Origin: Thiohalomonas denitrificans
GTDB taxonomy: Bacteria; Pseudomonadota; Gammaproteobacteria; Thiohalomonadales; Thiohalomonadaceae
DNA length: 64,000 nt
NCBI RefSeq assembly: GCF_016841685.1
Contig: NZ_JAENYR010000011.1
Location: 1 to 64,000, forward strand
Reading direction: 5' to 3'
Of this stretch, positions 31,765 to 45,903 are shown one piece after another. The notes below the pieces were generated by a model. It saw nothing but the letters and a program-made list of their open reading frames with translations. It did not search any database and was not told the DNA's origin. Each line of letters begins with the position of its first letter. Position 1 is the stretch's first letter. The position numbers and the translations under genes are program-made.

Positions 31765-34700
31765 CTTCTGAGCTGCTTATCCGGCAGTGAACAGCACATG
31801 GATGGCCTATCGCGGTTTCCTGCTTTTCTGAGCTGCCTATCCGGCAGTGAAAAGTGAACGTGAAAGAGCTGCAGTACCTGGGCGTGCACCTTTTCTGAGC
31901 TACCTATCCGGCAGTGAACGCATCCGCCCATCTCTCCGTGAGGACCTGATATTTCTGAGCTGCCTATCCGGCAGTGAACCTTCGCATAGTCGATGGCTTC
32001 CATTTCACGGTTTTCTGAGCTGCCTATCCGGCAGTGAACGACGGCTGCCTCCAGCTCGGCGATGGCCATCTTTTCTGAGCTGCCTATCCGGCAGTGAACA
32101 TGGGGAGGCATCCGGCACGACCAGGGAGTGGATTTCTGAGCTGCCTATCCGGCAGTGAACATTGGCTATATCGGCAGCAGAGAGCGTCTGGTTTTCTGAG
32201 CTGCCTATCCGGCAGTGAACTCGGCGCCCTCGGCGGATGCGCGTACCTGGGTTTTCTGAGCTGCCTATCCGGCAGTGAACGACATAGGTGCCGGGCTTGG
32301 CGTCGCGTCCCATTTCTGAGCTGCCTATCCGGCAGTGAACGCGGCCCCAGTCGAGCGAGGCGGCGACATCGATTTCTGAGCTGCCTATCCGGCAGTGAAC
32401 CACCTGGGCAGCGTTGACCTCGGGATCATCCATTTCTGAGCTGCCTATCCGGCAGTGAACCGATACCGGGCTATGACCGACTCAGCCTGGTCTTTCTGAG
32501 CTGCCTATCCGGCAGTGAACCACATACCCCCGATTTCGCGGAGCCTCCCGCATTTCTGAGCTGCCTATCCGGCAGTGAACTCGGGGTATGACCGCTCGCC
32601 GGGATAGGAACTTTTCTGAGCTGCCTATCCGGCAGTGAACAATTATCGAGAAGATGCGCGAGCGGTCTAATTTTTCTGAGCTGCCTATCCGGCAGTGAAC
32701 GGAGGCGATCGCAGAACTGCCGGTGATGGTGTTTTCTGAGCTGCCTATCCGGCAGTGAACCTGGAGACGATCCCGCGTCATCTGCGGGATAATTTCTGAG
32801 CTGCCTATCCGGCAGTGAACGCACCCAAAGCGCATAGCTTTTCCGCCTGATTTTTCTGAGCTGCCTATCCGGCAGTGAACAAGCATCCCGCGAAATGCTG
32901 GCGCTCGCGTTTTTTCTGAGCTGCCTATCCGGCAGTGAACGCGGAACCCGGCCGAGGCCGTTTCCGCGTGGTTTTCTGAGCTGCCTATCCGGCAGTGAAC
33001 GCCTCCATCAGCCACGAGACCAGTGCGCAAGATTTCTGAGCTGCCTATCCGGCAGTGAACGCATGGGCTCGGTTTATCCAGTTTATGACGATTTTCTGAG
33101 CTGCCTATCCGGCAGTGAACACCCTTTGAGCGCCGCTTCACGCTTCCATGCTTTTCTGAGCTGCCTATCCGGCAGTGAACCGTCTGCGCACGAAGGGGCT
33201 AAGCCCGTTGTTTTTCTGAGCTGCCTATCCGGCAGTGAACCAAGCTCAGCGAAATCGCCGGCCGAACAAAATTTTCTGAGCTGCCTATCCGGCAGTGAAC
33301 CTCATGCAGGTAGTCGATGTTCGGGTTGCCCTTTTCTGAGCTGCCTATTCGGCAGTGAACGAATTCATCATCCTGCAACGCTGGTTTAATCCTTTCTGAG
33401 CTGCCTATCCGGCAGTGAACAAAGACATGTCGCGCAAAATCGGATTACTCAATTTCTGAGCTGCCTATCCGGCAGTGAACTACTCTGCCCGCTTCACCTG
33501 CTGGGAGATGTATTTCTGAGCTGCCTATCCGGCAGTGAACGGATCGGGAGAGTCGTGCGGAGTGTCGGACGTTTTCTGAGCTGCCTAGCCGGCAGTGAAC
33601 ATCAAGAGGCATTAGCGCTTGAGGATGTAGATTTTCTGAGCTGCCTATCCGGCAGTGAACACGCCGTTGGGGGAGGATTACATAAACGAACATTTCTGAG
33701 CTGCCTATCCGGCAGTGAACCTGTGGCAGGAAGTATTTGCAGCCACCAGCAATTTCTGAGCTGCCTATCCGGCAGTGAACCGCATTACGCAGGGTTACGG
33801 CAGCACCAATATTTTCTGAGCTGCCTATCCGGCAGTGAACCGCACAGAGCCGGAGGGGTGGAAGCTGGTGCCTTTCTGAGCTGCCTATCCGGCAGTGAAC
33901 GCTCCGGGTCCGTGGCAACATCCCCCTCCGTTTTTCTGAGCTGCCTATCCGGCAGTGAACTCCGAGAACCGTCATGCAGCAGATTGCCCGCTTTTCTGAG
34001 CTGCCTATCCGGCAGTGAACAACACAACAACAGTTTCTTTAGACGATGAAGCGTTTCTGAGCTGCCTATCCGGCAGTGAACGGCGATGGCGGAGCCCGTG
34101 CCGATGTTCCCGTTTTCTGAGCTGCCTATCCGGCAGTGAACGTGAGAAGAGCAGCATCACCGCCGGCACTAAGTTTCTGAGCTGCCTATCCGGCAGTGAA
34201 TGCTCTCAATCTCTGCGGCCAACTGCTCCAAGTTTTCTGAGCTGCCTATCCGGCAGTGAACCTGTCTCAACAGGATTTGTTCGGGGGTGCATTTTTCTGA
34301 GCTGCCTATCCGGCAGTGAACGGTTTGTTCCTGCTTGCTGCGGTGCCCGGTCATTTCTGAGCTGCCTATCCGGCAGTGAACTGTGAATTTCATGTCTGCT
34401 TCCTCTGATTGCCTTTCTGAGCTGCCTATCCGGCAGTGAACCTACTGCGTCGCATCCCTCCGGCAGAATGTCATTTCTGAGCTGCCTATCCGGCAGTGAA
34501 CCGTATATCCCATGTTATGCGGTCATCTCCGCATTTCTGAGCTGCCTATCCGGCAGTGAACCGATTGCTTACTACAAATTTCCGCTCACAGAATTTCTGA
34601 GCTGCCTATCCGGCAGTGAACCGCAGCAAGCAGAAACAAACCGAACACTATCTTTTCTGAGCTGCCTATCCGGCAGTGAACTCCGGGTAATATCCGCAAA

Positions 34701-37446
34701 TCGTCCGCGACGTTTTCTGAGCTGCCTATCCGGCAGTGAACGGGTTCCAGCGCCGGACGTCCTCGAGGCCAATTTTCTGAGCTGCCTATCCGGCAGTGAA
34801 CGCGTTGAACGGGAGATAAAAGTGATATCTATCTTTCTGAGCTGCCTATCCGGCAGTGAACGGGCGCCACCGGCGGCGCCGGCTGGGACGGCTTTTCTGA
34901 GCTGCCTATCCGGCAGTGAACATCTGTTCCCATCGCTGAATCGTCCGGATGCTTTTCTGAGCTGCCTATCCGGCAGTGAACGTTGAGATTGACTATTCGG
35001 AGGCCGCGCAACATTTCTGAGCTGCCTATCCGGCAGTGAACGGCAGCGATCGCCAGAGCCAGGGCGACGAATTTTTCTGAGCTGCCTATCCGGCAGTGAA
35101 CCCGATCGGCGAGACCATGGAGGGCGCCGAACATTTCTGAGCTGCCTATCCGGCAGTGAACGAGATGCGGGAGCTGGAGGCTAAGGCGGCGATTTTCTGA
35201 GCTGCCTATCCGGCAGTGAACAGGGTAGGGCCCCAATATTGGATTTCCTTCTCTTTCTGAGCTGCCTATCCGGCAGTGAACCCCCGTGCCCGTGCATGCG
35301 GTGATATCTCGACTTTCTGAGCTGCCTATCCGGCAGTGAACGTGATAACCTCGCCAGAAATCGAGTAGTATTCCTTTCTGAGCTGCCTATCCGGCAGTGA
35401 ACGTACGACAAAGGCGGATATGATATTCGCTGTATTTTCTGAGCTGCCTATCCGGCAGTGAACGAAGGTCGAGTTGGTGGTGCCCGCGCCATTTTTTTCT
35501 GAGCTGCCTATCCGGCAGTGAACAACCTGAGCGCCACCATCAGCGCAGACGCCACTTTCTGAGCTGCCTATCCGGCAGTGAACAGAACAAGCATCACGAT
35601 TACATCGTGCTCTTTTTTCTGAGCTGCCTATCCGGCAGTGAACTGAGTCTGGCCGAAAGAGGCCGATCCTTCATTTTTCTGAGCTGCCTATCCGGCAGTG
35701 AACAGCGATACCGAATACTACGCCGCAGGCGTCAATTTCTGAGCTGCCTATCCGGCAGTGAACCAGTGTGGCATAGGTGTGGCGGCTGCCGTGTATTTCT
35801 GAGCTGCCTATCCGGCAGTGAACAATGAGCTACTTCGAACGATACGATTCTTTCTTTTCTGAGCTGCCTATCCGGCAGTGAACCTAAAACACAACGGCAT
35901 GTCGGTTATTAACTTTTTCTGAGCTGCCTATCCGGCAGTGAACCTGGCGACTAGAAACAAGTGGAAGCCTATTAATTTCTGAGCTGCCTATCCGGCAGTG
36001 AACATTATGGAAATCTGGAAAGACACTTATGTATTCTTTCTGAGCTGCCTATCCGGCAGTGAACAACCAGGGCGTGCGCGGATGTCTGGCGTCGATTTTC
36101 TGAGCTGCCTATCCGGCAGTGAACAGGACACTATTTTCCCTGACCTGGCAAGCGGTTTTCTGAGCTGCCTATCCGGCAGTGAACGAAGACGTGATCCATA
36201 CGCTGCACTCCGAGCTTTTCTGAGCTGCCTATCCGGCAGTGAACGATCCGCCTTGGCTTGCAGGGTGCCGAGCTTTTTTCTGAGCTGCCTATCCGGCAGT
36301 GAACCGAGCGGGGCACCAGTACGCCGGTGTGGTGCATTTTCTGAGCTGCCTATCCGGCAGTGAACTCAAATACCTGTCCGGCACTGCGGCCCATTATTTT
36401 CTGAGCTGCCTATCCGGCAGTGAACGTCGGGGACCTGACTCCAGCGCATGACGATCGATTTCTGAGCTGCCTATCCGGCAGTGAACCGCCTATTGTCGAG
36501 TCGGGGAGTAATGCGAACTTTCTGAGCTGCCTATCCGGCAGTGAACGGATGCGACGAGCGGGACATGGTTTTCGCTAATTTCTGAGCTGCCTATCCGGCA
36601 GTGAACGTTGGCCGTGGATGGTCCGCGCTCTTCAGTCATTTCTGAGCTGCCTATCCGGCAGTGAACTTGCGGGACTCCCACACGGCCCTGCGGTATTTTT
36701 TCTGAGCTGCCTATCCGGCAGTGAACAAATCCGGGTCCAGGTCCAGCACGATCGCGACTTTCTGAGCTGCCTATCCGGCAGTGAACGTGGAGTCGGCCAC
36801 GTCTCCCCAGGGCGACGTTTTCTGAGCTGCCTATCCGGCAGTGAACCTCATCAACTACCAGATCATTGAGCACAACCTTTTCTGAGCTGCCTATCCGGCA
36901 GTGAACGTCTTCGGCCTCTTCATCCGTGTAGCCCTTCTTTTCTGAGCTGCCTATCCGGCAGTGAACGCATTTAGTGCTCCACTGCTCAGGCCGCCAGATT
37001 TCTGAGCTGCCTATCCGGCAGTGAACCCGACAGCGCTCGCGGTGTCGTCGGCTTCGGTTTTCTGAGCTGCCTATCCGGCAGTGAACAACGCGCTCAACGC
37101 GACCCCCACTATCCAGCATTTCTGAGCTGCCTATCCGGCAGTGAACGAGTGGTCCGGCATCAGGTCGCGTTTCTCCGTTTTCTGAGCTGCCTATCCGGCA
37201 GTGAACGATCACCTACGACCAGACCGTGGCGTTGTCATTTTCTGAGCTGCCTATCCGGCAGTGAACAGTTGGGCCAACTGTTCGCCTTGATCTTCAATTT
37301 TCTGAGCTGCCTATCCGGCAGTGAACTCGATCGTAAGCTGTAACGCCGTCTTTTTGGTTTTCTGAGCTGCCTATCCGGCAGTGAACAGAACGGCATGTAC
37401 TACGCGCACGACAGTTGCTTTCTGAGCTGCCTATCCGGCAGTGAAC
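31765..37446 (-). CRISPR. Type I-F CRISPR array, 95 repeats and 94 spacers
   Basis: Repeats of 28 bp recur every 60 bp (spacers 32, occasionally 33). Read on the minus strand they start GTTCACTGCCGGATAGGCAG and end CTCAGAAA, a type I-F repeat with the Cas6f hairpin CTGCC-GGATA-GGCAG. Counting one repeat per 60 bp gives 95 repeats. The leader-distal end (31765-31919) is degenerate: repeat 1 has changes at its end and in the stem, repeat 2 carries a 7 bp duplication of AGTGAAA before the spacer, and repeat 3 has a G-T wobble in the stem. Internal single-base variants at 33333-33360 and 33573-33600 fall only in the hairpin loop. Many ORFs across the array are artefacts of the repeat. Confidence 0.99.
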
Positions 37447-37575: not shown

Positions 37576-38142
37576 TCAAAACCAGGGGATGGTCGCTTCT
37601 GAGCTCAACCCATAGGCATTAAAAGTTCCATTTATTGCTTGTGCCTGGGGTGGAGAATGCTCCAAAAAAACACAAAAGTAGTGTCCATTGCTTTGGCTTT
37701 TTAGCCGAAGAAAGGGCAGCTTCACCCGTTCCTCCACGGAATCGGGGATTTTCAGCGCGATTTCTTCCTCTGACAGTTCCGAATGCCGTTTGGCATGCCG
37801 GCGCCGCAAACGCTCGGCATTGGACTTCGGCTGTACTCGCCTTATGCGACGGTGCTTAGCATTCCCGGGCACCGCCGCCAAGTCCGACTGAAACAGGTGA
37901 TCACGCATTCCAGTCAGCCAATTCTCTGTCATGACTCGCTCAAGGTCGGCAGCAGTTCCGTGTAGTCGTAGGCACGGCCCAAGAAACAGTTGGTCCTGCT
38001 GAAGTTCTGGGAAACTGATCCCGATAGAGCGGCTGTCGATCTGGACCAAGGCACGATGAAGTTTGGAAAACAGGGCATTCATCAATAGCGGCGTCGGAAA
38101 TTCCGGATCGGGTAGCAGCCGAAAATCCAGATAGTGATCCAT
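37576..38142 (-). CDS. cas6f: Type I-F CRISPR endoribonuclease Cas6f (Csy4)
   Basis: Cas6f cuts the pre-crRNA on the 3' side of each repeat hairpin and stays bound to it. The 188 aa protein starts MDHYLDFRLLPDPEFPTP, nearly the Pseudomonas Csy4 N-terminus, with catalytic His29 (SKLHRALV) conserved. The arginine-rich RNA-binding helix RVQPKSNAERLRRRHAKRH and the C-terminal ending GLSSEATIPWF are also present. It is the last gene of the cas8f-cas5f-cas7f-cas6f operon, 3 bp after cas7f and next to the leader. Confidence 0.98.
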   Translation of the reverse strand: MDHYLDFRLLPDPEFPTPLLMNALFSKLHRALVQIDSRSIGISFPELQQDQLFLGPCLRLHGTAADLERVMTENWLTGMRDHLFQSDLAAVPGNAKHRRIRRVQPKSNAERLRRRHAKRHSELSEEEIALKIPDSVEERVKLPFLRLKSQSNGHYFCVFLEHSPPQAQAINGTFNAYGLSSEATIPWF

Positions 38143-38145
38143 GGT

Positions 38146-39180
38146 CTACTCCTTTTCGCCGAATACGCCGCCCCGGATTAGCGTCGCCATGACGAAGTGC
38201 TGATGGCCTTCTGCCGGAACCTGTTCCTTCAGCACCCAGTTGTCGAGCAGGTTGTAGAAGTCGGTCTTCTGCTTAGGCTGGCGGTACGCCTTGCCTTGAG
38301 ATGTTACGGAGCCATACGGTTCGACTGCAATCGGCCCTAGGTTGGTGGTGTCGCGATACCAGGTGTCTATCGTCCTGAGTGCGTTCCCAATCTTCTGGCT
38401 GTGCATTCCCGCCACGTCGCCAACGGTGTAGAGGGTTTTGCTTTTCTGTCCGCGTTTATCGCCCCTGTCGAGGATCAGCTCCTGGGAAGGGTAGACCTCC
38501 TGGCCATCACCGACGCGGGCATAGGCGATCACCTCAAGCAGGACATGGCTTTCACCGGACAGCCCCTTTTCGACAACCCTGGCGAGCTCTTCGAGCGAAT
38601 TTGCCTTCGCCTCTGGTGCGTTGAAGTCCCGTAGCGAAAAATCATGTGCATCGAAGTCCCACTCGTTCGCCACTTCACCATCCTTCAGGTGGCGGATCCG
38701 GACCTCGATGCGTTCCGCACCAATGCGGTTACGCCACAGAAAGCGGCCATTGGCCAGGTTGACTGCGTAGCGGTGGGCCAGCTCGGAGAATCCTTTTTCC
38801 TGAACATATCGCTGCACGGTCGCCTGCAACCGCTCCTGGTAATCGGCGTTGTTACAGGCCGAGGGCGATCCCGCGCCGCCGAGAACGCGTAGGGTGAAGC
38901 GGGTCCGCAGCGTGTCCAGGTCGTTCGGCAGCGCCGCGACATCGACGGTCTGCAGGTTGGGCGATTGAATCGATGCGTCCAGCTTTGCCGGGTCCTGCTC
39001 CTTGGTTTTCAGACGGTTGGAAATGGTCCCGCGCACCGACTTTTCCCTAACGCTGATCGCAGGCCATTTGGAACCGTTGTCCCTAGTGTTCCAGGAACCG
39101 GCGCTAAAAAGGGCGTCGGAGGGATCCAGTTTGCGCTCGAAGGCGAGAACAGAGGCGGTTTTTACTTCTTTAGTGGCCAT
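38146..39180 (-). CDS. cas7f: Type I-F Cascade backbone protein Cas7f (Csy3)
   Basis: Cas7f forms the six-subunit backbone of the I-F Cascade along the crRNA guide, with one base in six flipped out by its thumb. The 344 aa product has typical Csy3 landmarks: [20 protein letters not shown] near the N-terminus, [18 protein letters not shown], and the C-terminal [18 protein letters not shown]. Length is close to the family norm. Gap to cas5f is 12 bp. Confidence 0.97.
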
Positions 39181-39192
39181 GATTGATGCTCC

Positions 39193-40167
39193 TTATGCAA
39201 TGCCGTCAACGGCGGTTTCCAACGTTTGGGAGTAGTGATTGATGCAGCGGTAGATTCCTCTGTCCGGATCGGCCTCATTGCGCCACAGCAATTGATCTAG
39301 GTGGTTAAACCGGTGGGGACTGACCCATTCGCCCAACGAATAGATGCTTTCGACAAAGCGAAAGGGGGTGGATTCATCCCGGGTATTCTTTACCTCGCCA
39401 CCACGATGAAGCGGCGAGAGAGCGGCATAGCCGACCGGAAGCGGCACAAGCCAGCCCGGTCTCTTGCGGATGCCCCACTTCGATTCCTCCGGCTTGTCCG
39501 GATCGGGACAATCAGGCTCGTAATTCAGGCGGGTCATATCCAGTAATGCATCGAGCGCGGTGGTGGTTGGTGCCCGTTCCCGCAGTTCAGACAGGCGTTG
39601 CGCCAACCGGTCCTCCCGTTCAACCAGGGCGAAGCCCGGGAGTAGACGGCGACGGAATTTGCGAAGGACCTCCCGTTGGCCCTCGATATCCTCCGCCATT
39701 GGCCACCATTGGGCGTCAAACCTTTTTCCCTCGCGTTTCGGCAGGATGCTACCGCCGGCAAGACGCATTCCCTGCACGATTTCCATGACCTCCTCGGCGA
39801 AACGCTGGCCCTTGCCGGCCGACAGGTAATCGCGCACGGCAATCACCAGACTGACCTCCATATGGGCCCGACCCTCTTCCACTAGCGCCTGGGTCGTTCC
39901 ATCCTTCCCGACCGGGTTTCGGGTCAAGCGGAAGACCTGGGTGTGTTTTCCGGCCGGCTGGAACACCTGGGGGGCGAAGCCGTGACAGATGATGCCGACA
40001 CCAGTGAATCCCAAGGCCTGATCGCGCGCAAGGCGACGCTCCAGCGCATGGACAAATCCGGTGAATGCCGTCGGAGCGGGAAAGCCCCAGCTTAGTGGGC
40101 CGCAAATCGCGTTGGCGTTCTGTACCCGCAGGCGCGGCAGCAGTAGCAGAGCGGTAGGTTCACTCAT
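39193..40167 (-). CDS. cas5f: Type I-F Cascade subunit Cas5f (Csy2)
   Basis: Cas5f binds the crRNA 5' handle together with Cas8f. The 324 aa protein begins LLLLPRLRVQNANAICGPLS, followed by WGFPAPTAFTGFVHALERRL and GVGIICHGFAPQV, the standard Csy2 pattern. Its start overlaps the 3' end of cas8f by 8 nt. Confidence 0.97.
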   Translation of the reverse strand: MSEPTALLLLPRLRVQNANAICGPLSWGFPAPTAFTGFVHALERRLARDQALGFTGVGIICHGFAPQVFQPAGKHTQVFRLTRNPVGKDGTTQALVEEGRAHMEVSLVIAVRDYLSAGKGQRFAEEVMEIVQGMRLAGGSILPKREGKRFDAQWWPMAEDIEGQREVLRKFRRRLLPGFALVEREDRLAQRLSELRERAPTTTALDALLDMTRLNYEPDCPDPDKPEESKWGIRKRPGWLVPLPVGYAALSPLHRGGEVKNTRDESTPFRFVESIYSLGEWVSPHRFNHLDQLLWRNEADPDRGIYRCINHYSQTLETAVDGIA

Positions 40168-41461
40168 CGAAGTCGACCTCCATGCGCATGAGTTTCATCT
40201 CCTTTTCCATGACTGATTGCCACTCGTGGGCTTCGTCTTTGCCCATGGGGGTTCTTGTCGATGTGAGGGTTGCGTTCAGCCAGTTGGCAAAGCGCCTGCA
40301 GACCTCCTCTTTCCAATCACCTCTGGCACAGAGCGTCGCGAACGCTTCATCCTGCGCGGCCCGGCCCGGATCGAGCCAGCATTGCTCCGCCGCATTCAGC
40401 CGACACTTTTCATCCACGGTCCAGCCCGGTTTGAGCTCATGCAGTTCAGCGGCAAACAGCAACGCCTCGTCACGAAGGTGGCCTACGAGATCGGCGCGCG
40501 TCTCGCGAATGCGGATGTTGTTGATATCCTGAACCCCTTTCAGAAAGTCTCCCAGCGTGCGGAGTAGTATTCGCACCCGCTTGCGCCTCTCGAACACATG
40601 GTCGAAGACACTCTCTGTATTCAGTGGGGTTCGAACCGGGGTCGAATACCAGGTCGGCGGCAGGGCGGCGAGCAAATAGTTCTCTCCGTAGCGCTCGCTG
40701 TTTAGCTGGCTGATGTTTTGCGGTTTGGTGCCGCCGAAGTTCTGGATCGCCAGATCGGGGTATTCGCAAAAGCCGTGAGGATGCGGCTCGCGGTCCCAGT
40801 AGGCCTTTCGGGCGGCCTTCGCCTCCTCGGAGAACCGATCAACGCGAATGCCGCTCACGACGCGGTGTACCAATGAGGTTGGGAACAAGGGGGCCAGCAG
40901 GTGGTACTCACCCTTTCCAAGAGGCCAGTAGAGCTGCTTGGCAAGCCGGTGAGAGGCCAGCTCTCCCTTGGGCTCAATCAGCCCGGTGAAGGCCTCCATC
41001 CAACTTTTGGCCTGTTCGGCATTATCCGAGAAAGCGGCCTGCAGCGCGCTGTCGCCCTCAAGAGCCAGGTCCAGCAGGCTCTTGCCGCCAACCTCCAACT
41101 TCAGAAACTTGTACACGTCCAGAGCGGCGGCATTACCGACGATATCGGGGGCGGCTTCATCCAGGGTATGGGTGCCGACCAGCAGGTCACCGGCCTGCGG
41201 GTTGCCTGGGGCGTTCAGACTGGTGCCCCTGGCATCGGGGTGGGTGAACTTGATGGCGTGGGTGACTTGCTGAATTTGCCCGACTCGGCTCGCGGCGTTG
41301 TAAATCCAGCGCTCAGGCTGATGCGCCTCCAGAAGCTTTTCGCGTTTGTCGTCCTCCCCTTCCTTGAGTTTATCCAGCTTGGGCTGAAGTCGCTCTTGGA
41401 GGAATTGAGTGATCACCTGCCGAACACTTTCCGGCGATATTGAAGATTCCGGCACAACCAC
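40160..41461 (-). CDS. cas8f: Type I-F Cascade large subunit Cas8f (Csy1)
   Basis: Cas8f recognises the CC PAM and anchors the crRNA handle. I choose the GTG at 41461 (433 aa, starting VVVPESSISPESVRQV) because AAGGAG (41471-41476) lies 9 nt upstream. The frame extends to an ATG at 41524 with no ribosome site and an un-Csy1-like N-terminus. Family features include FLQERLQPKLDKLKEGEDDK, ATHAIKFTHPDA-like THAIKFTHPDARG and NFGGTKPQNISQLNSERYG. It heads the four-gene Cascade operon; its upstream region holds the pseudo-CRISPR element. Confidence 0.95.
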   Translation of the reverse strand: MVVPESSISPESVRQVITQFLQERLQPKLDKLKEGEDDKREKLLEAHQPERWIYNAASRVGQIQQVTHAIKFTHPDARGTSLNAPGNPQAGDLLVGTHTLDEAAPDIVGNAAALDVYKFLKLEVGGKSLLDLALEGDSALQAAFSDNAEQAKSWMEAFTGLIEPKGELASHRLAKQLYWPLGKGEYHLLAPLFPTSLVHRVVSGIRVDRFSEEAKAARKAYWDREPHPHGFCEYPDLAIQNFGGTKPQNISQLNSERYGENYLLAALPPTWYSTPVRTPLNTESVFDHVFERRKRVRILLRTLGDFLKGVQDINNIRIRETRADLVGHLRDEALLFAAELHELKPGWTVDEKCRLNAAEQCWLDPGRAAQDEAFATLCARGDWKEEVCRRFANWLNATLTSTRTPMGKDEAHEWQSVMEKEMKLMRMEVDFDE

Positions 41462-41522
41462 GAATGCACGCTCCTTATGACAAATAAATATTGTTTTCGA
41501 ACAAACTACCTGCCTGAAAGGC

Positions 41523-41551
41523 AAAATACAACCATGTAATTATCTGAAGAA
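41523..41551 (-). promoter_or_regulatory. Candidate promoter of the cas8f operon
   Basis: On the minus strand TTCTTC (41546-41551) and TATTTT (41523-41528) are 17 bp apart, about 62 bp before the cas8f GTG. The -10 matches four of six positions; the -35 is poor, as expected for a regulated promoter. The proposed target site of the pseudo-guide falls between the two boxes. Confidence 0.3.
41532..41547 (+). promoter_or_regulatory. Proposed Cascade target (PAM plus protospacer) of the pseudo-crRNA
   Basis: CC (41532-41533, the I-F PAM) precedes ATGTAATTATCTGA (41534-41547). The pseudo-guide at 41595-41608 is ATGTAGTTATCAGG. Over the first 13 positions only 6 and 12 differ. These are the bases flipped out of the guide-target duplex in type I Cascades. 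Confidence 0.65.
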
Positions 41552-41557
41552 CCACTC

Positions 41558-41563
41558 TATAAT
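41558..41563 (+). promoter_or_regulatory. Consensus -10 box before the pseudo-CRISPR unit
   Basis: TATAAT on the plus strand ends 3 bp before the first pseudo-repeat, placing a start of transcription at about 41569-41571, at the pseudo-repeat itself. The -35 region (about 41535-41540) overlaps the proposed Cascade target and has no good hexamer. Confidence 0.5.
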
Positions 41564-41566
41564 TCC

Positions 41567-41636
41567 GAACACTGCCGAAGAGGTAGCTTAGAAGATGTAG
41601 TTATCAGGATTAACTGCCGACCAGGCAGCACTCCGC
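41567..41636 (+). ncRNA. Pseudo-CRISPR unit: two degenerate I-F repeats with a ~14 nt guide
   Basis: Pseudo-repeat 1 (41567-41594) matches the array repeat at 21 of 28 positions, keeps the Cas6f stem (CTGCC-GAAGA-GGTAG, one G-T wobble) and would give an 8 nt handle CTTAGAAG (array handle CTCAGAAA). Pseudo-repeat 2 (41609-41636) keeps the exact stem CTGCC-GACCA-GGCAG but has decayed beyond the cleavage site. Between them are 14 nt (41595-41608) instead of 32. Cas6f cleavage after both stems would yield a ~42 nt crRNA-like RNA. Its guide matches the site at 41534-41547 next to a CC PAM upstream of cas8f. A role as a Cascade-loaded autorepressor, like Cas-regulating RNAs known in other CRISPR types, is inferred. 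Confidence 0.7.
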
Positions 41637-41654
41637 GGGGCTTTCGCCCCGCGG
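41633..41654. terminator. GC-rich hairpin between pseudo-CRISPR unit and cas2-3 stop
   Basis: CCGCGGGGC-TTTC-GCCCCGCGG is a perfect 9 bp stem with a tetraloop, 2 bp from the cas2-3 stop. The plus-strand side continues TCTCATT, a weak T-rich tail. It may terminate the pseudo-CRISPR transcript, cas2-3, or both. Confidence 0.5.
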
Positions 41655-41656
41655 TC

Positions 41657-44600
41657 TCATTGACCCCGACTAAACCCCAATGCCGGGTGGTAATTCCACC
41701 CTTTCGTTTCTTGCTTCGCCGGTAGGTCGATAATGCCAAACAGCCGGGCGCAGTACGTTACTTCCATGCCGAGCCGCTCCGCGAGCGCCTCCAGGGCCTC
41801 CCTGTAATCCGGCTCGCCCCAGAACTCGATCCGGGGCCCCGGATCGAGTTCAAGGGCATTGCAAAGAGATAATTTCGTCAGTTTTCCATCGCCCTCGAAA
41901 CGGTAGAATCCGATGTCTTCATCGTCATCATCAGGCAGGAGCCCGTAACGCTGGTGTCCCTCTGGATCGAGACGGAAGGGGGTGTTTCGCTGAAGTTCGC
42001 CGCTTATGCTCGCGTGCGTTGACCACCACCAGTGGACCGGCTCCATCTTGTAGATGCCCCCTTCGGTCTCTCCAAACATCAAAGCCCGCAGCTTGGCGTG
42101 TTCCAGGTCCACTAGGTTCCGTGTGGGCTGAAGTGTTTTTCGCTCGCGGATGCGAGCCGAGGCGTCGATTGAAGCTAACTGCTCCGGGGCCAACAGTTCG
42201 GTAAGGCGATGCGTCGCCAGCGGAAAGTCCTCATTTTCGAAGCCGGGCCGGCAAAACGCGGGGGCGTTGGGCCGGATCAGGTGTCTTACATTGGTGTCCA
42301 GCAGGTAGAGGTTGGCACTTTCACAAACCCCGGGGCGGTGCCTGCGGACGCGTCCGGCCAACTGAATAATGGAGCGCATCGACGAGGGCTCGACCACCGC
42401 CCAGTCGTAGTCATGGTCCCGCCCCACTTCGGCGACCGCCGTCGCCAGTACGACGTAGATCTGCTCCGGTTCCGATGCATTGTCGAGGCAGTCGCGAACC
42501 GCGGGTTCTTCGAGTACCGCGTCGGGTTCTGCTCGGTTCAGGAGGCGGTCTAATCGGTTTTCGATGCCGGTGCGGACCAATAGCGGATGCTGTGAATGAT
42601 ATACACAGAGGTGAATACGATGACCCTCCTCGGCGCCCAGGCGGTATAGGGCTTGAGCGGTTTCGATTAGGGGCCCGATATTAGCCATTCGGATGAGTCC
42701 GAAACTAATCCGCTTTCCGGTTTTTGGGTCGGGCGTATTGTGCCGATCGTGAAGCTCATGAATGTAGTCACGTAGATGGGGCGCCAACTCTGCCGTGACC
42801 TCTTCCCGCTCCTTGGCGTGGGCAATCGAAAGTGGCTTGATAACCGCCTTTCGGCGCATCTCTGTCTGCGCCAGTCGGCGGAGGCGCCCATCGACAAAGG
42901 TCCGATGAGCCAAGGCATAACTATCCCGGGCAGAATGATTGCTGGTATCTGCGTTGAACTCGTCAAACCAGGCGCAACAGACGTCGAGAGGTTCTCCCGG
43001 TATGCCCCGGTTGCGTTGATAGCTACGCCGTCCCTCCAGGTAGGCTTGGAACAGCCCCTGAGTCAGAGTGGGTGGGAGCGTTGCTGATGAGAGCAGGACG
43101 CGACTGCCCAACAGCCCGGCCCAATGAACCAGTCGGGTCAGGGCGGGCAAATCGTTGGTATCGAAGTCGTCCGGTTCGTCCAGCACCAGGTCCGAACTCA
43201 TAAGACGCAACATCGGAGCAATTTGACGGCCGCCACGGGTGCCCTCGGTGGCCGGGATCAGGTGATCGACAGTGCAGGCCAGAATGGGGGCATTGAGAAG
43301 TTTCCGTGCCTCCACGTTATCACCCAGCCAGCGGTTCAGTGGGCCATCCTCCAGGCTTCCCTCGAAATGCACGAAGTGCTGTTTGGGCAACAGATCGGCG
43401 CTGGATTCAGCACCCAGCGTCGATAGCCGAGTCTCCTCTTCTTGGCGCTGCTGCTCATGAAGTTTCCGAACGGCTCCACCAACAAGCACCGCCAGATCAT
43501 CACTGCCCAGTCCGAGCCGCTTCCGGTAGGCGTCACCGGTCTGCAAGGTCAGAGTCCGAAGTCCCAGGGCGATACTGAAGCGGGCTCCCTGTTGCGGATC
43601 GGCAAGGGCATAGAGTATTCGCCCATTGGCCAGCGTCTTGCCGGCCCCTGTGGAGGCCATGTTGACGCCAAAGAAGCCCTGGCGAGCAGTGCGGGACTGA
43701 ATGCCGGTCGCTAAATCAAAGGCGCGATCCTGCCAACGAAAAGCCGGATTCCGACTGCGCTGCCGGAAACCCTTGTGCCGGGCGATACGGGGAAGCCGTT
43801 GTGCTAATCGGGGCAGCGCCCGGACAATTCGGCTGGCACTGACCTCGACACCGATCAGGTGTTCATCAAGTCGCTGCTTGAGGGCGCCTGTACCACGGTC
43901 GGTATTGGCGAAAAGCGGGTACTCCGGGCTTCCGTACCGCTTGTGGCTGGGTTGGGCGGAGTAGTAGTGGTCGGCCAGCATCAGGGCCATGCGGGAGAGG
44001 TGCAACACATAAGGATCATCCCGCCATTGTGACTGCAGCATTGTAGGTCGCTGGAGGATTCTGTTAGCGACTTTGGCCGCGTGAATGCGCCAGTGATGGC
44101 TGTCGAATGGCGTGCCTTTTCTGAACCGCCAGCACTCCGCGATGGCCTTTTCCGAGGCGTCGAACTGCAGTCCGCTCCATGTGTCTTGAATCTCTTCGGG
44201 GAGGTTGACCAAAAGCTGGGAGCGGATGGGGGAACCCTTCACCTGAGTCGGTAGACGGTGATGGCTGACAATCAACCACCCGACAACGTGTGCCAAAGGT
44301 GCTGACGATGGCAATGCTTCGAACGGTCCGAGAAGGCCGCGATCCATTCTGTCTCGCGACAACCGGTCCAGCACGCCTTTGCCCTGCCCCTTGGTCAACC
44401 CGGCTAGCCGCTGCAACCAGACATCATCGCTGTCCTCTCCGACAAAGGCCTCGAACAGCCGCAACGAGACCCATTCATGCCGGTAGGCGTCAGCAATTGG
44501 CTTTTTGCTGCTGGCCGGGGCCAACTTTTTCTGAAAGGCTTGGTTTGCCTTACCGAAGTCATGAAACAGCGCCGCAAGCGTCGCCAGGAGCCGGATCTCC

Positions 44601-44929
44601 TCGGCGGTATGCCAGTCGTTTTCATCCCGGCTTCTGAGTACATCACGTGCTGTCGTATTGGTCGGGGTGGCCCCCTGAGCATTGAATCTCCTGGCATCGC
44701 CGACAATCCAGAGAAGCTCACTATGGTCTTTCCCGCGTATCCAGTGACAAGCCACCGCGGTATTCTTGCGAGCCGTTTTTCGCAACATGCGATGCAGAGT
44801 TTCCAGGCCCTGCTGGGTGATTGGGGTTTGCCAGGTACGGTCGCCGCGGCGCTCAGCAAACTGGTCGAGGATCCGCCGTGTTTCGGTAAGGGCATTCTTG
44901 CTGCACTGGGAGGCCAGCAGAACGTTCAT
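41657..44929 (-). CDS. cas2-3: Type I-F Cas2-Cas3 fusion, helicase-nuclease
   Basis: The 1090 aa protein combines Cas2 (about residues 1-95, starting MNVLLASQCSKNALTETRRI), needed for spacer acquisition, with Cas3. The HD nuclease motif is His123-Asp124 (ALFHDFGKANQAF). Further helicase landmarks are Walker A Lys431 in MASTGAGKT, the DExD-like LVLDEPDDFD, SSATLPP, and motif VI LAGRVRRHRPG. This fusion is the hallmark of type I-F. It overlaps cas1 by 4 nt, so cas1-cas2-3 form an adaptation/interference operon separate from the Cascade operon. Confidence 0.97.
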   Translation of the reverse strand: MNVLLASQCSKNALTETRRILDQFAERRGDRTWQTPITQQGLETLHRMLRKTARKNTAVACHWIRGKDHSELLWIVGDARRFNAQGATPTNTTARDVLRSRDENDWHTAEEIRLLATLAALFHDFGKANQAFQKKLAPASSKKPIADAYRHEWVSLRLFEAFVGEDSDDVWLQRLAGLTKGQGKGVLDRLSRDRMDRGLLGPFEALPSSAPLAHVVGWLIVSHHRLPTQVKGSPIRSQLLVNLPEEIQDTWSGLQFDASEKAIAECWRFRKGTPFDSHHWRIHAAKVANRILQRPTMLQSQWRDDPYVLHLSRMALMLADHYYSAQPSHKRYGSPEYPLFANTDRGTGALKQRLDEHLIGVEVSASRIVRALPRLAQRLPRIARHKGFRQRSRNPAFRWQDRAFDLATGIQSRTARQGFFGVNMASTGAGKTLANGRILYALADPQQGARFSIALGLRTLTLQTGDAYRKRLGLGSDDLAVLVGGAVRKLHEQQRQEEETRLSTLGAESSADLLPKQHFVHFEGSLEDGPLNRWLGDNVEARKLLNAPILACTVDHLIPATEGTRGGRQIAPMLRLMSSDLVLDEPDDFDTNDLPALTRLVHWAGLLGSRVLLSSATLPPTLTQGLFQAYLEGRRSYQRNRGIPGEPLDVCCAWFDEFNADTSNHSARDSYALAHRTFVDGRLRRLAQTEMRRKAVIKPLSIAHAKEREEVTAELAPHLRDYIHELHDRHNTPDPKTGKRISFGLIRMANIGPLIETAQALYRLGAEEGHRIHLCVYHSQHPLLVRTGIENRLDRLLNRAEPDAVLEEPAVRDCLDNASEPEQIYVVLATAVAEVGRDHDYDWAVVEPSSMRSIIQLAGRVRRHRPGVCESANLYLLDTNVRHLIRPNAPAFCRPGFENEDFPLATHRLTELLAPEQLASIDASARIRERKTLQPTRNLVDLEHAKLRALMFGETEGGIYKMEPVHWWWSTHASISGELQRNTPFRLDPEGHQRYGLLPDDDDEDIGFYRFEGDGKLTKLSLCNALELDPGPRIEFWGEPDYREALEALAERLGMEVTYCARLFGIIDLPAKQETKGWNYHPALGFSRGQ

Positions 44930-45903
44930 ACGGCCCGCCCCCCGACATCTGTCGCGATCCGCTTGATCGTATCGATCATGAAATCCAGCGATTCATTGCG
45001 TGTTAAGCCTTCAATGCAGGCTTGCCGGAACTCCTGCTCGTCATGACCGGCCATGGCAGAAATAAACGCCTGGGGCAAAATAACGGCATCTTTCACCAAA
45101 TCCGCCACGTCGAACACTAAACCGCCACGACGGGTTTTGCCGTGCAATACTGCCAGGCCATGCGGCACGCCCAGTACCCAGGTGGCCGTTGCGCCCAAGC
45201 CATAGGCCAGATAGTTGCCGTGATCGAGAAAACGATTAGCTGGATCGGTGCCGGTACCCTTCTTGGCGCGGACAAACTCACCGTAACCCATGGTCCGTGC
45301 AGCAATCTTGAACAGGTCTTTGGTAAGGCGCGCTTCAAGAGTCAGGAGATCCATCGTAGTAGGGCAGGCGGCAATACCGGCGCGGGTACTTTCAAGCTGT
45401 GGCCCCAAGGTGCTTCCCTGCACCTCGAAGCCCGCATCCCGCAGAGCCCGACTTTTTAGCCAGTGTGACTCAAGGCGCTGCAGCCGGGCATACTGAAAAG
45501 CCCTGGCTGCTTCCAACCGTAGTCCGTCATCGAACCAGAACCGGACCCAATTCTGCAGATATTCGGTTGGTCGGTATTCGCTTTGCGGAGTGAACCAGGC
45601 AACTTCGACATCCACTTCGTTTGCACTAAAAAGCGGCGTGCCACCACCACCACAGAATCCCACCAATACACCCGCCTTGGCCAGTTCGCGCATGGCGGCC
45701 TGAGTTATCGATGTGCCGGTCCCCAAGAGCAGGGATGTGGTGTTGGCGATAGGGATGTTCCAATATAGCGACTGCCGCCCTTCATCGGTGACGTATTCGA
45801 CTCGTCCACCGTTTACTAGTACGCGACAGTGCTGGAGATAGTAGAGGTTAGCGCGTTTCGAATGTAAAACGCTTTTGAGGTCGCTTGGTGTCAGGTCATC
45901 CAT
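44926..45903 (-). CDS. cas1: Type I-F CRISPR integrase Cas1
   Basis: Cas1 inserts new spacers at the leader end together with the Cas2 domain of Cas2-3. The 325 aa product begins MDDLTPSDLKSVLHSKRANL, has the beta-rich N-terminal domain (VEYVTDEGRQSLYWNIPIAN) and the helical catalytic domain with RFLDHGNYLAYGLGATATW, GVPHGLAVLHG and RGGLVFDVADLVKDAVILP. The acidic/His metal ligands of Cas1 lie in these blocks. It is the first gene of the cas1-cas2-3 operon. Confidence 0.97.
   Translation of the reverse strand: MDDLTPSDLKSVLHSKRANLYYLQHCRVLVNGGRVEYVTDEGRQSLYWNIPIANTTSLLLGTGTSITQAAMRELAKAGVLVGFCGGGGTPLFSANEVDVEVAWFTPQSEYRPTEYLQNWVRFWFDDGLRLEAARAFQYARLQRLESHWLKSRALRDAGFEVQGSTLGPQLESTRAGIAACPTTMDLLTLEARLTKDLFKIAARTMGYGEFVRAKKGTGTDPANRFLDHGNYLAYGLGATATWVLGVPHGLAVLHGKTRRGGLVFDVADLVKDAVILPQAFISAMAGHDEQEFRQACIEGLTRNESLDFMIDTIKRIATDVGGRAV

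Follow-up and report, generated by a model that had tools for sequence, protein, structure and literature searches.

Autorepression of CRISPR-Cas systems by CreR, a Cas-regulating crRNA-like RNA, has been reported for types I-B, I-E and V-A (reviewed in PMC12737573 and PMC13131331). In type I-F, a CreTA toxin-antitoxin module has been characterised in the cas3-csy1 gap of Acinetobacter WCHA45, where the RNA antitoxin CreA represses transcription via the Csy proteins, Cas1 and Cas3 are not needed, and any loss of pairing at positions 13-17 abolished repression (PMC10097628). Tandem rare codons are the signature of the tRNA-sequestering CreT toxins, as worked out in haloarchaea (PMC8501985). Shmakov et al. 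(2023, NAR 51:8150, gkad495) have been cited for Cas-dependent repression through repeat-like sequences, and a natural single guide (long tracrRNA) has been cited as autoregulating Cas9 (Workman 2021, in PMC10651486). The latter resembles the element described here in that a natural guide RNA repurposes the effector to repress its own operon, but it belongs to type II and is a tracrRNA-derived single guide with unrelated parts. No account of a type I-F CreR was found in the open-text literature. The mini-arrays of Shmakov and colleagues are said to carry spacers partly matching cas8 promoters, a likeness to the present element, and one of them, from I-F1, reportedly acts as a regulatory guide.

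The window analyzed here (the whole stretch of 64,000 nucleotides) contains a complete type I-F1 CRISPR-Cas locus, with Csy1-4, Cas3f carrying an N-terminal Cas2 domain (fused cas2/3), Cas1f and a 28-nt I-F repeat (GTTCACTGCCGGATAGGCAGCTCAGAAA in crRNA sense; 95 copies). A 195-nt gap between the start of cas8f and the end of cas2/3 houses, on the plus strand, two degenerate copies of this repeat, psiR1 and psiR2, around a 14-nt guide, psiS (Table 1). The sequence from 41558 to 41636 is very probably a creR gene, through which Cascade would repress its own operon. The CreR features present are a crRNA-like gene whose degenerate repeats lie outside the array, a partial, PAM-flanked match to the cas promoter (site and PAM exact, promoter by consensus), no toxin gene, guide-target pairing conserved in relatives, and a predicted self-repression that would sense crRNA and anti-CRISPRs. 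It differs from described CreRs in its subtype, in its 14-nt guide and in being known here from sequence alone. The element resembles Acinetobacter WCHA45 CreTA in position (cas3-csy1), psiR1-psiS-psiR2 order, orientation divergent from csy1, CC PAM and unpaired position 6. However, the guide there has 20 nt and represses a toxic mini-ORF RNA, whereas the window has no toxin gene and its target abuts the putative cas8f promoter. The first-pass annotation had left open whether such a layout was described: as a I-F CreTA it has been published (PMC10097628), and an I-F1 regulatory version is the mini-array mentioned above.

Table 1 Features of the type I-F1 locus and of the candidate creR element in the window
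Feature	Position	Strand	Remarks
Main CRISPR array	31765..37446	-	95 repeats; source of the crRNAs that would compete
cas6f (csy4)	37576..38142	-	Presumed processing nuclease
cas7f (csy3)	38146..39180	-	
cas5f (csy2)	39193..40167	-	
cas8f (csy1)	40160..41461	-	GTG start at 41461, 70 nt from PAM; first gene of presumed repressed operon
Shine-Dalgarno TAAGGAG of cas8f	41471..41477	-	
Putative cas8f promoter	41503..41531	-	-35 TTGTAT 41531-41526, 17 nt, -10 TAGTTT 41508-41503
CC, type I-F PAM	41532..41533	+	Directly before target
Target (protospacer) ATGTAATTATCTGA	41534..41547	+	Pairs with psiS guide
creR -10 box TATAAT	41558..41563	+	Probable; 3 nt before psiR1
psiR1, degenerate repeat	41567..41594	+	21/28 matches to array repeat; predicted Cas6f/Csy4 cut after G41586
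5' handle CTTAGAAG	41587-41594	+	Left by predicted cut in psiR1
psiS, 14-nt guide ATGTAGTTATCAGG	41595..41608	+	14 = 6N-4 at N=3 Cas7f
psiR2, degenerate repeat	41609..41636	+	17/28; stem intact, 3' part lost; predicted cut after 41628
GC-rich perfect hairpin CCGCGGGGCTTTCGCCCCGCGG	41633..41654	+	After psiR2
cas2/3	41657..44929	-	Flanks element on side opposite cas8f
cas1	44926..45903	-	

The first-pass annotation had placed both repeats, the guide and the CC-flanked target, and all of these positions and letters were correct on recheck, as were its match count for psiR1 and the intact core stem of psiR2. psiR1 is the best match to the repeat outside the array in the whole window (runner-up, 19 matches). 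psiR2 would be unremarkable by its match count alone, but it retains an intact 5-bp stem with its flanking core (ACTGCCGnnnAGGCAG). A search of the 3.79-Mb genome with the psiR core pattern gave psiR1 as the single match outside the array and no other copies of the element. The two predicted Cas6f cuts would release a mature RNA of 42 nt (41587-41628), CTTAGAAG-ATGTAGTTATCAGG-ATTAACTGCCGACCAGGCAG, with an 8-nt handle, a 14-nt guide and a 20-nt stem. Counting against the proposal, psiR1 pairs with psiR2 in the lowest-energy fold of the precursor, which does not form two separate hairpins. The GC-rich hairpin behind psiR2 could mark the 3' end of creR and, read from the opposite side, of cas2/3; no U-run follows it, and the terminator scan called no intrinsic terminator there. 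At 17-nt spacing, the -35 box of creR would fall inside the target, and creR may thus be self-repressed as well. The same TATAATTCC stands ahead of psiR1 in locus L005.

The guide differs from its target only at positions 6, 12 and 14, which bears out the earlier claim that the first 13 nt are mismatched at 6 and 12 alone and adds position 14. The resulting 11 pairs are the ten pairable positions of the seed plus position 13, with none certain beyond 13. The target seed (CCATGTANTTATC) occurs once in the 3.79-Mb genome, where no secondary target with a full seed was found. Toward cas8f, the PAM reads GG, and a -35-like box comes next. It should be noted that a generic scan called no promoter; the placement in Table 1 comes from a graded scan anchored on the PAM, by consensus only, and both boxes are weak, with 3/6 consensus matches each. 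Their position 0-3 nt after the PAM is conserved: the -35 box of the best promoter within 90 bp starts 2-5 nt after the first PAM base (a 0-3 nt gap) in 15 of 24 loci, and the commonest offset between PAM and -35 box reaches z=4 (24 independent loci). The cas8f transcript would start near 41496, giving a leader of ∼35 nt with TAAGGAG before the GTG, and Cascade on the target would place its Cas8f-Cas5f end over the -35 box. A small palindrome (TGCCTTTCAGGCA) lies at 41509-41525, between the putative -35 and -10 boxes, and was called terminator-like on the minus strand.

To place the element among other I-F systems, the cas8f upstream region was scanned in 80 named I-F loci and 13 from whole genomes (window included), and psiR1-psiS-psiR2 was present in 37 of the 93. 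In 23 held-out loci, fetched afterwards, the layout was present in 8, with seed scores of 8-10. Counting the window, 45 of 116 I-F loci (44 of 115 others) carry it in the cas2/3-cas8f gap, which, given the strict detection rules, is a lower bound. Of 78 testable loci, 32 had the paired-repeat layout upstream of cas8f, and the same scan found it in 0/78 stretches of the cas8f/cas5f body, 0/78 of cas2/3 and 0/78 shuffles. The guides of different loci are wholly unlike, yet nearly all match a nearby CC-flanked site: behind CC, 9/10 seed positions matched in 11 loci and 10/10 in 26 (the window among them), whereas among 1220 trials with guides swapped between loci, 9 reached 9/10 and none reached 10/10. 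Repeat layout and guide-target match are not due to chance.

Degenerate repeats with a spacer also occur at the ends of ordinary arrays, and an array end with a chance self-match could look like this element. Such an origin is extremely improbable. The array lies 4 kb off on the opposite strand, the swapped-guide, control-stretch and shuffle scans speak against it, and for the class it is ruled out by covariation that keeps guide-target pairing in dozens of loci.

Positional pairing was measured on 24 independent guides, in targets selected without the use of positions 13-18. Matches were found in 100% at positions 1-5, 29% at 6, 88-100% at 7-11, 17% at 12, 100% at 13, 71% at 14, 91% at 15, 86% at 16, 62% at 17, 29% at 18 and about 40% beyond, where chance gives 27%. 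This is the pattern of a guide bound by Cas7, in which every sixth base is flipped out, and of an R-loop that stops near 17. Positions 6 and 12 match about as often as chance predicts and so seem to be unconstrained, not kept mismatched by selection. The covariation test proposed in the first-pass annotation, with drift expected at 6 and 12, was positive. Pairs of related guides had 70 matched double changes versus 10 one-sided changes at pairable positions, and 14 versus 21 at positions 6 and 12; these counts are descriptive and carry no significance test, because the pairs overlap and some similar guides may be non-homologous. For example, the element of L005 resembles that of the window, and where its guide differs at positions 4, 8 and 13 the target is altered likewise. 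Across relatives, psiR1 retains stem and handle and psiR2 only the stem, its 3' end being lost, as would be expected if Cas6f processing left constraint only on sequence retained in the mature RNA. The free evidence here is limited to what is lost in psiR2 and in the outer five bases, because the scan itself required the psiR1 handle and both stems. CreR-like self-repression, as proposed at first, is the best explanation of the element.

The absence of cutting had been ascribed to the short guide. In vitro, a 14-nt spacer let I-F1 Cascade form an R-loop, but binding was weak and Cas2/3 was not triggered; in vivo, a 14-nt Aggregatibacter Cascade gave no detectable phage block (PMC7296934). This part of the argument holds for the window, where the 14-nt guide would have the same non-cutting effect through length, but it is not general: the relatives' guides have 14-34 nt and pairing ends near position 17 in all of them, so limited complementarity, and not a length of 14 nt, is what they have in common. 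Whole Cas7f units in I-F1 Cascade follow the rule 6N-4, with 14 nt (N=3) the smallest purifiable complex (PMC7296934). Guide lengths in our set cluster at these values (14, 20, 26 and 32; Rayleigh P 0.0006 for 37 guides, 0.005 for 24 independent), which is supportive only, because P falls below 0.01 for a period of 7 as well.

On the basis of these results, the following circuit can be proposed. creR would be transcribed away from cas8f, Cas6f would cut both degenerate repeats, and a short Cascade of about three Cas7f would take up the ∼42-nt RNA, recognise the CC at 41532 and pair through guide positions 1-5, 7-11 and 13 next to the cas8f -35 box. Its R-loop would be too short to activate Cas2/3, so it would stay in place and block transcription of cas8f-cas5f-cas7f-cas6f. 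Competition from many crRNAs, or inactivation of Cascade by an anti-CRISPR, would lower repression and raise Cascade production.

With 11 pairs, the pairing in the window is the weakest of the set and near the minimum, in contrast to Acinetobacter CreA with its need for pairs at 13-17, and repression may be mild or decayed. The element could even be a relic of CreTA or CreR that looks right and no longer represses, its guide shrunk to 14 nt and its pairing ended at 13, and the weak binding of 14-nt Cascade and the absent toxin would fit. We consider this unlikely, since the ten pairable seed positions and position 13 match, nothing is lost from the CC, the handle or either stem, and guides of 14-15 nt with kept pairing exist elsewhere (L067, L005 and L102). 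The comparison turned up no relative above 58% in Cas8f and, among 20 genomes of the same order and family, no other I-F system; recent selection on the exact copy in the window is not visible.

The CreTA explanation, the main rival, which the first-pass annotation did not consider, had to be excluded for the window. Under it the RNA would be the antitoxin CreA, the repressed gene a tiny RNA toxin, and cas8f would lie downstream by accident. CreTA occupies exactly this place in Acinetobacter I-F, and candidates for it stand at the same position in many relatives. Loci with the element fall into two classes by the stretch between PAM and cas8f start. In the short-gap class (14 loci, window included) this measures about 23-110 nt with nothing between. 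The longer class has an extra stretch with a Shine-Dalgarno, a ∼10-codon mini-ORF with tandem AGA/AGG or ATA and usually a hairpin; 8 of its 29 loci were labelled by distance only, and L047 and L054 are uncertain. By a strict rule the mini-ORF is present in 21 of the 29 longer-gap loci, versus 0-6% per locus in shuffles, and in none of the 14 short-gap loci. The window has a 9-codon ORF (41506-41535, minus strand) that starts beside the PAM, but it lies at or upstream of the putative transcript start and has neither a Shine-Dalgarno nor tandem rare codons. No divergent creT mini-ORF with these two features was found under the targeted promoter, and the PAM is only 70 nt from the cas8f start. 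The short gap and the lack of a toxin mini-ORF assign the window to the CreR class, and a CreTA identity has little probability, about as little as the relic.

On the other hand, the window's Cas8f nests among mini-ORF loci, in a clade with 100/100 support together with L001, L014, L099, L103 and L115, all of the longer class. Mapped on the Cas8f tree, the CreR and CreTA classes imply 8 changes, of which supported branches force 7; under strict labels the figures are 7 and 6. The simplest reading is that the lineage of the window lost creT, but the branching inside this clade does not prove that direction. It is conceivable, at somewhat less than even probability, that I-F loci repeatedly switch between addiction and autoregulation, keeping the guide-target-promoter cassette and losing or gaining the toxin before cas8f. 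The self-repressing element of the window would then be a CreTA minus its toxin, whose Cascade-repressed promoter now drives cas8f and whose guide has been cut to the smallest assembling Cascade. In that case CreR, the autoregulator, and CreTA, the addiction module, would be alternative states of a single cassette.

Our data add a clear type I-F case to RNA-guided CRISPR self-control, with an unusually clean evolutionary test in which dozens of unrelated guides keep their pairing and the free positions lie where Cas7 flips bases. They also supply bacterial I-F CreTA candidates with tandem AGA/ATA, a tRNA-sequestering signature whose characterisation has until now come from archaea. Novelty may lie in the breadth of I-F sampling combined with positional covariation, in the proposed repeated switching between CreR and CreTA, and in these bacterial mini-ORFs with AGA or ATA pairs.

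Several other observations were made during the survey. Putative I-F CreTA modules, from psi-array target to cas8f, were identified in L014, L021, L028, L033, L034, L041, L048, L052, L060-L062, L069, L071, L076, L080, L083, L087, L092, L099, L102 and L115, and the AGA and ATA versions of the mini-ORF alternate among related Halomonadaceae. After its PAM, L001 has a mini-ORF homologous to that of L115 (GTG TTC GGC ...) in which TTA TTA replaces AGA AGA; this copy may be dead, or it may have moved to a rare leucine codon. Pairing is also kept in L054, where extra DNA puts about 874 bp between the psi-array and its target. The target in L066 and L091 begins just 10 nt before psiR1, where bound Cascade would cover the creR gene too. 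Finally, L005 has an ORF of ∼63 codons under the Cascade-targeted promoter, overlapping the cas8f start and lacking a clear Pfam match, which could encode a protein under creR control.
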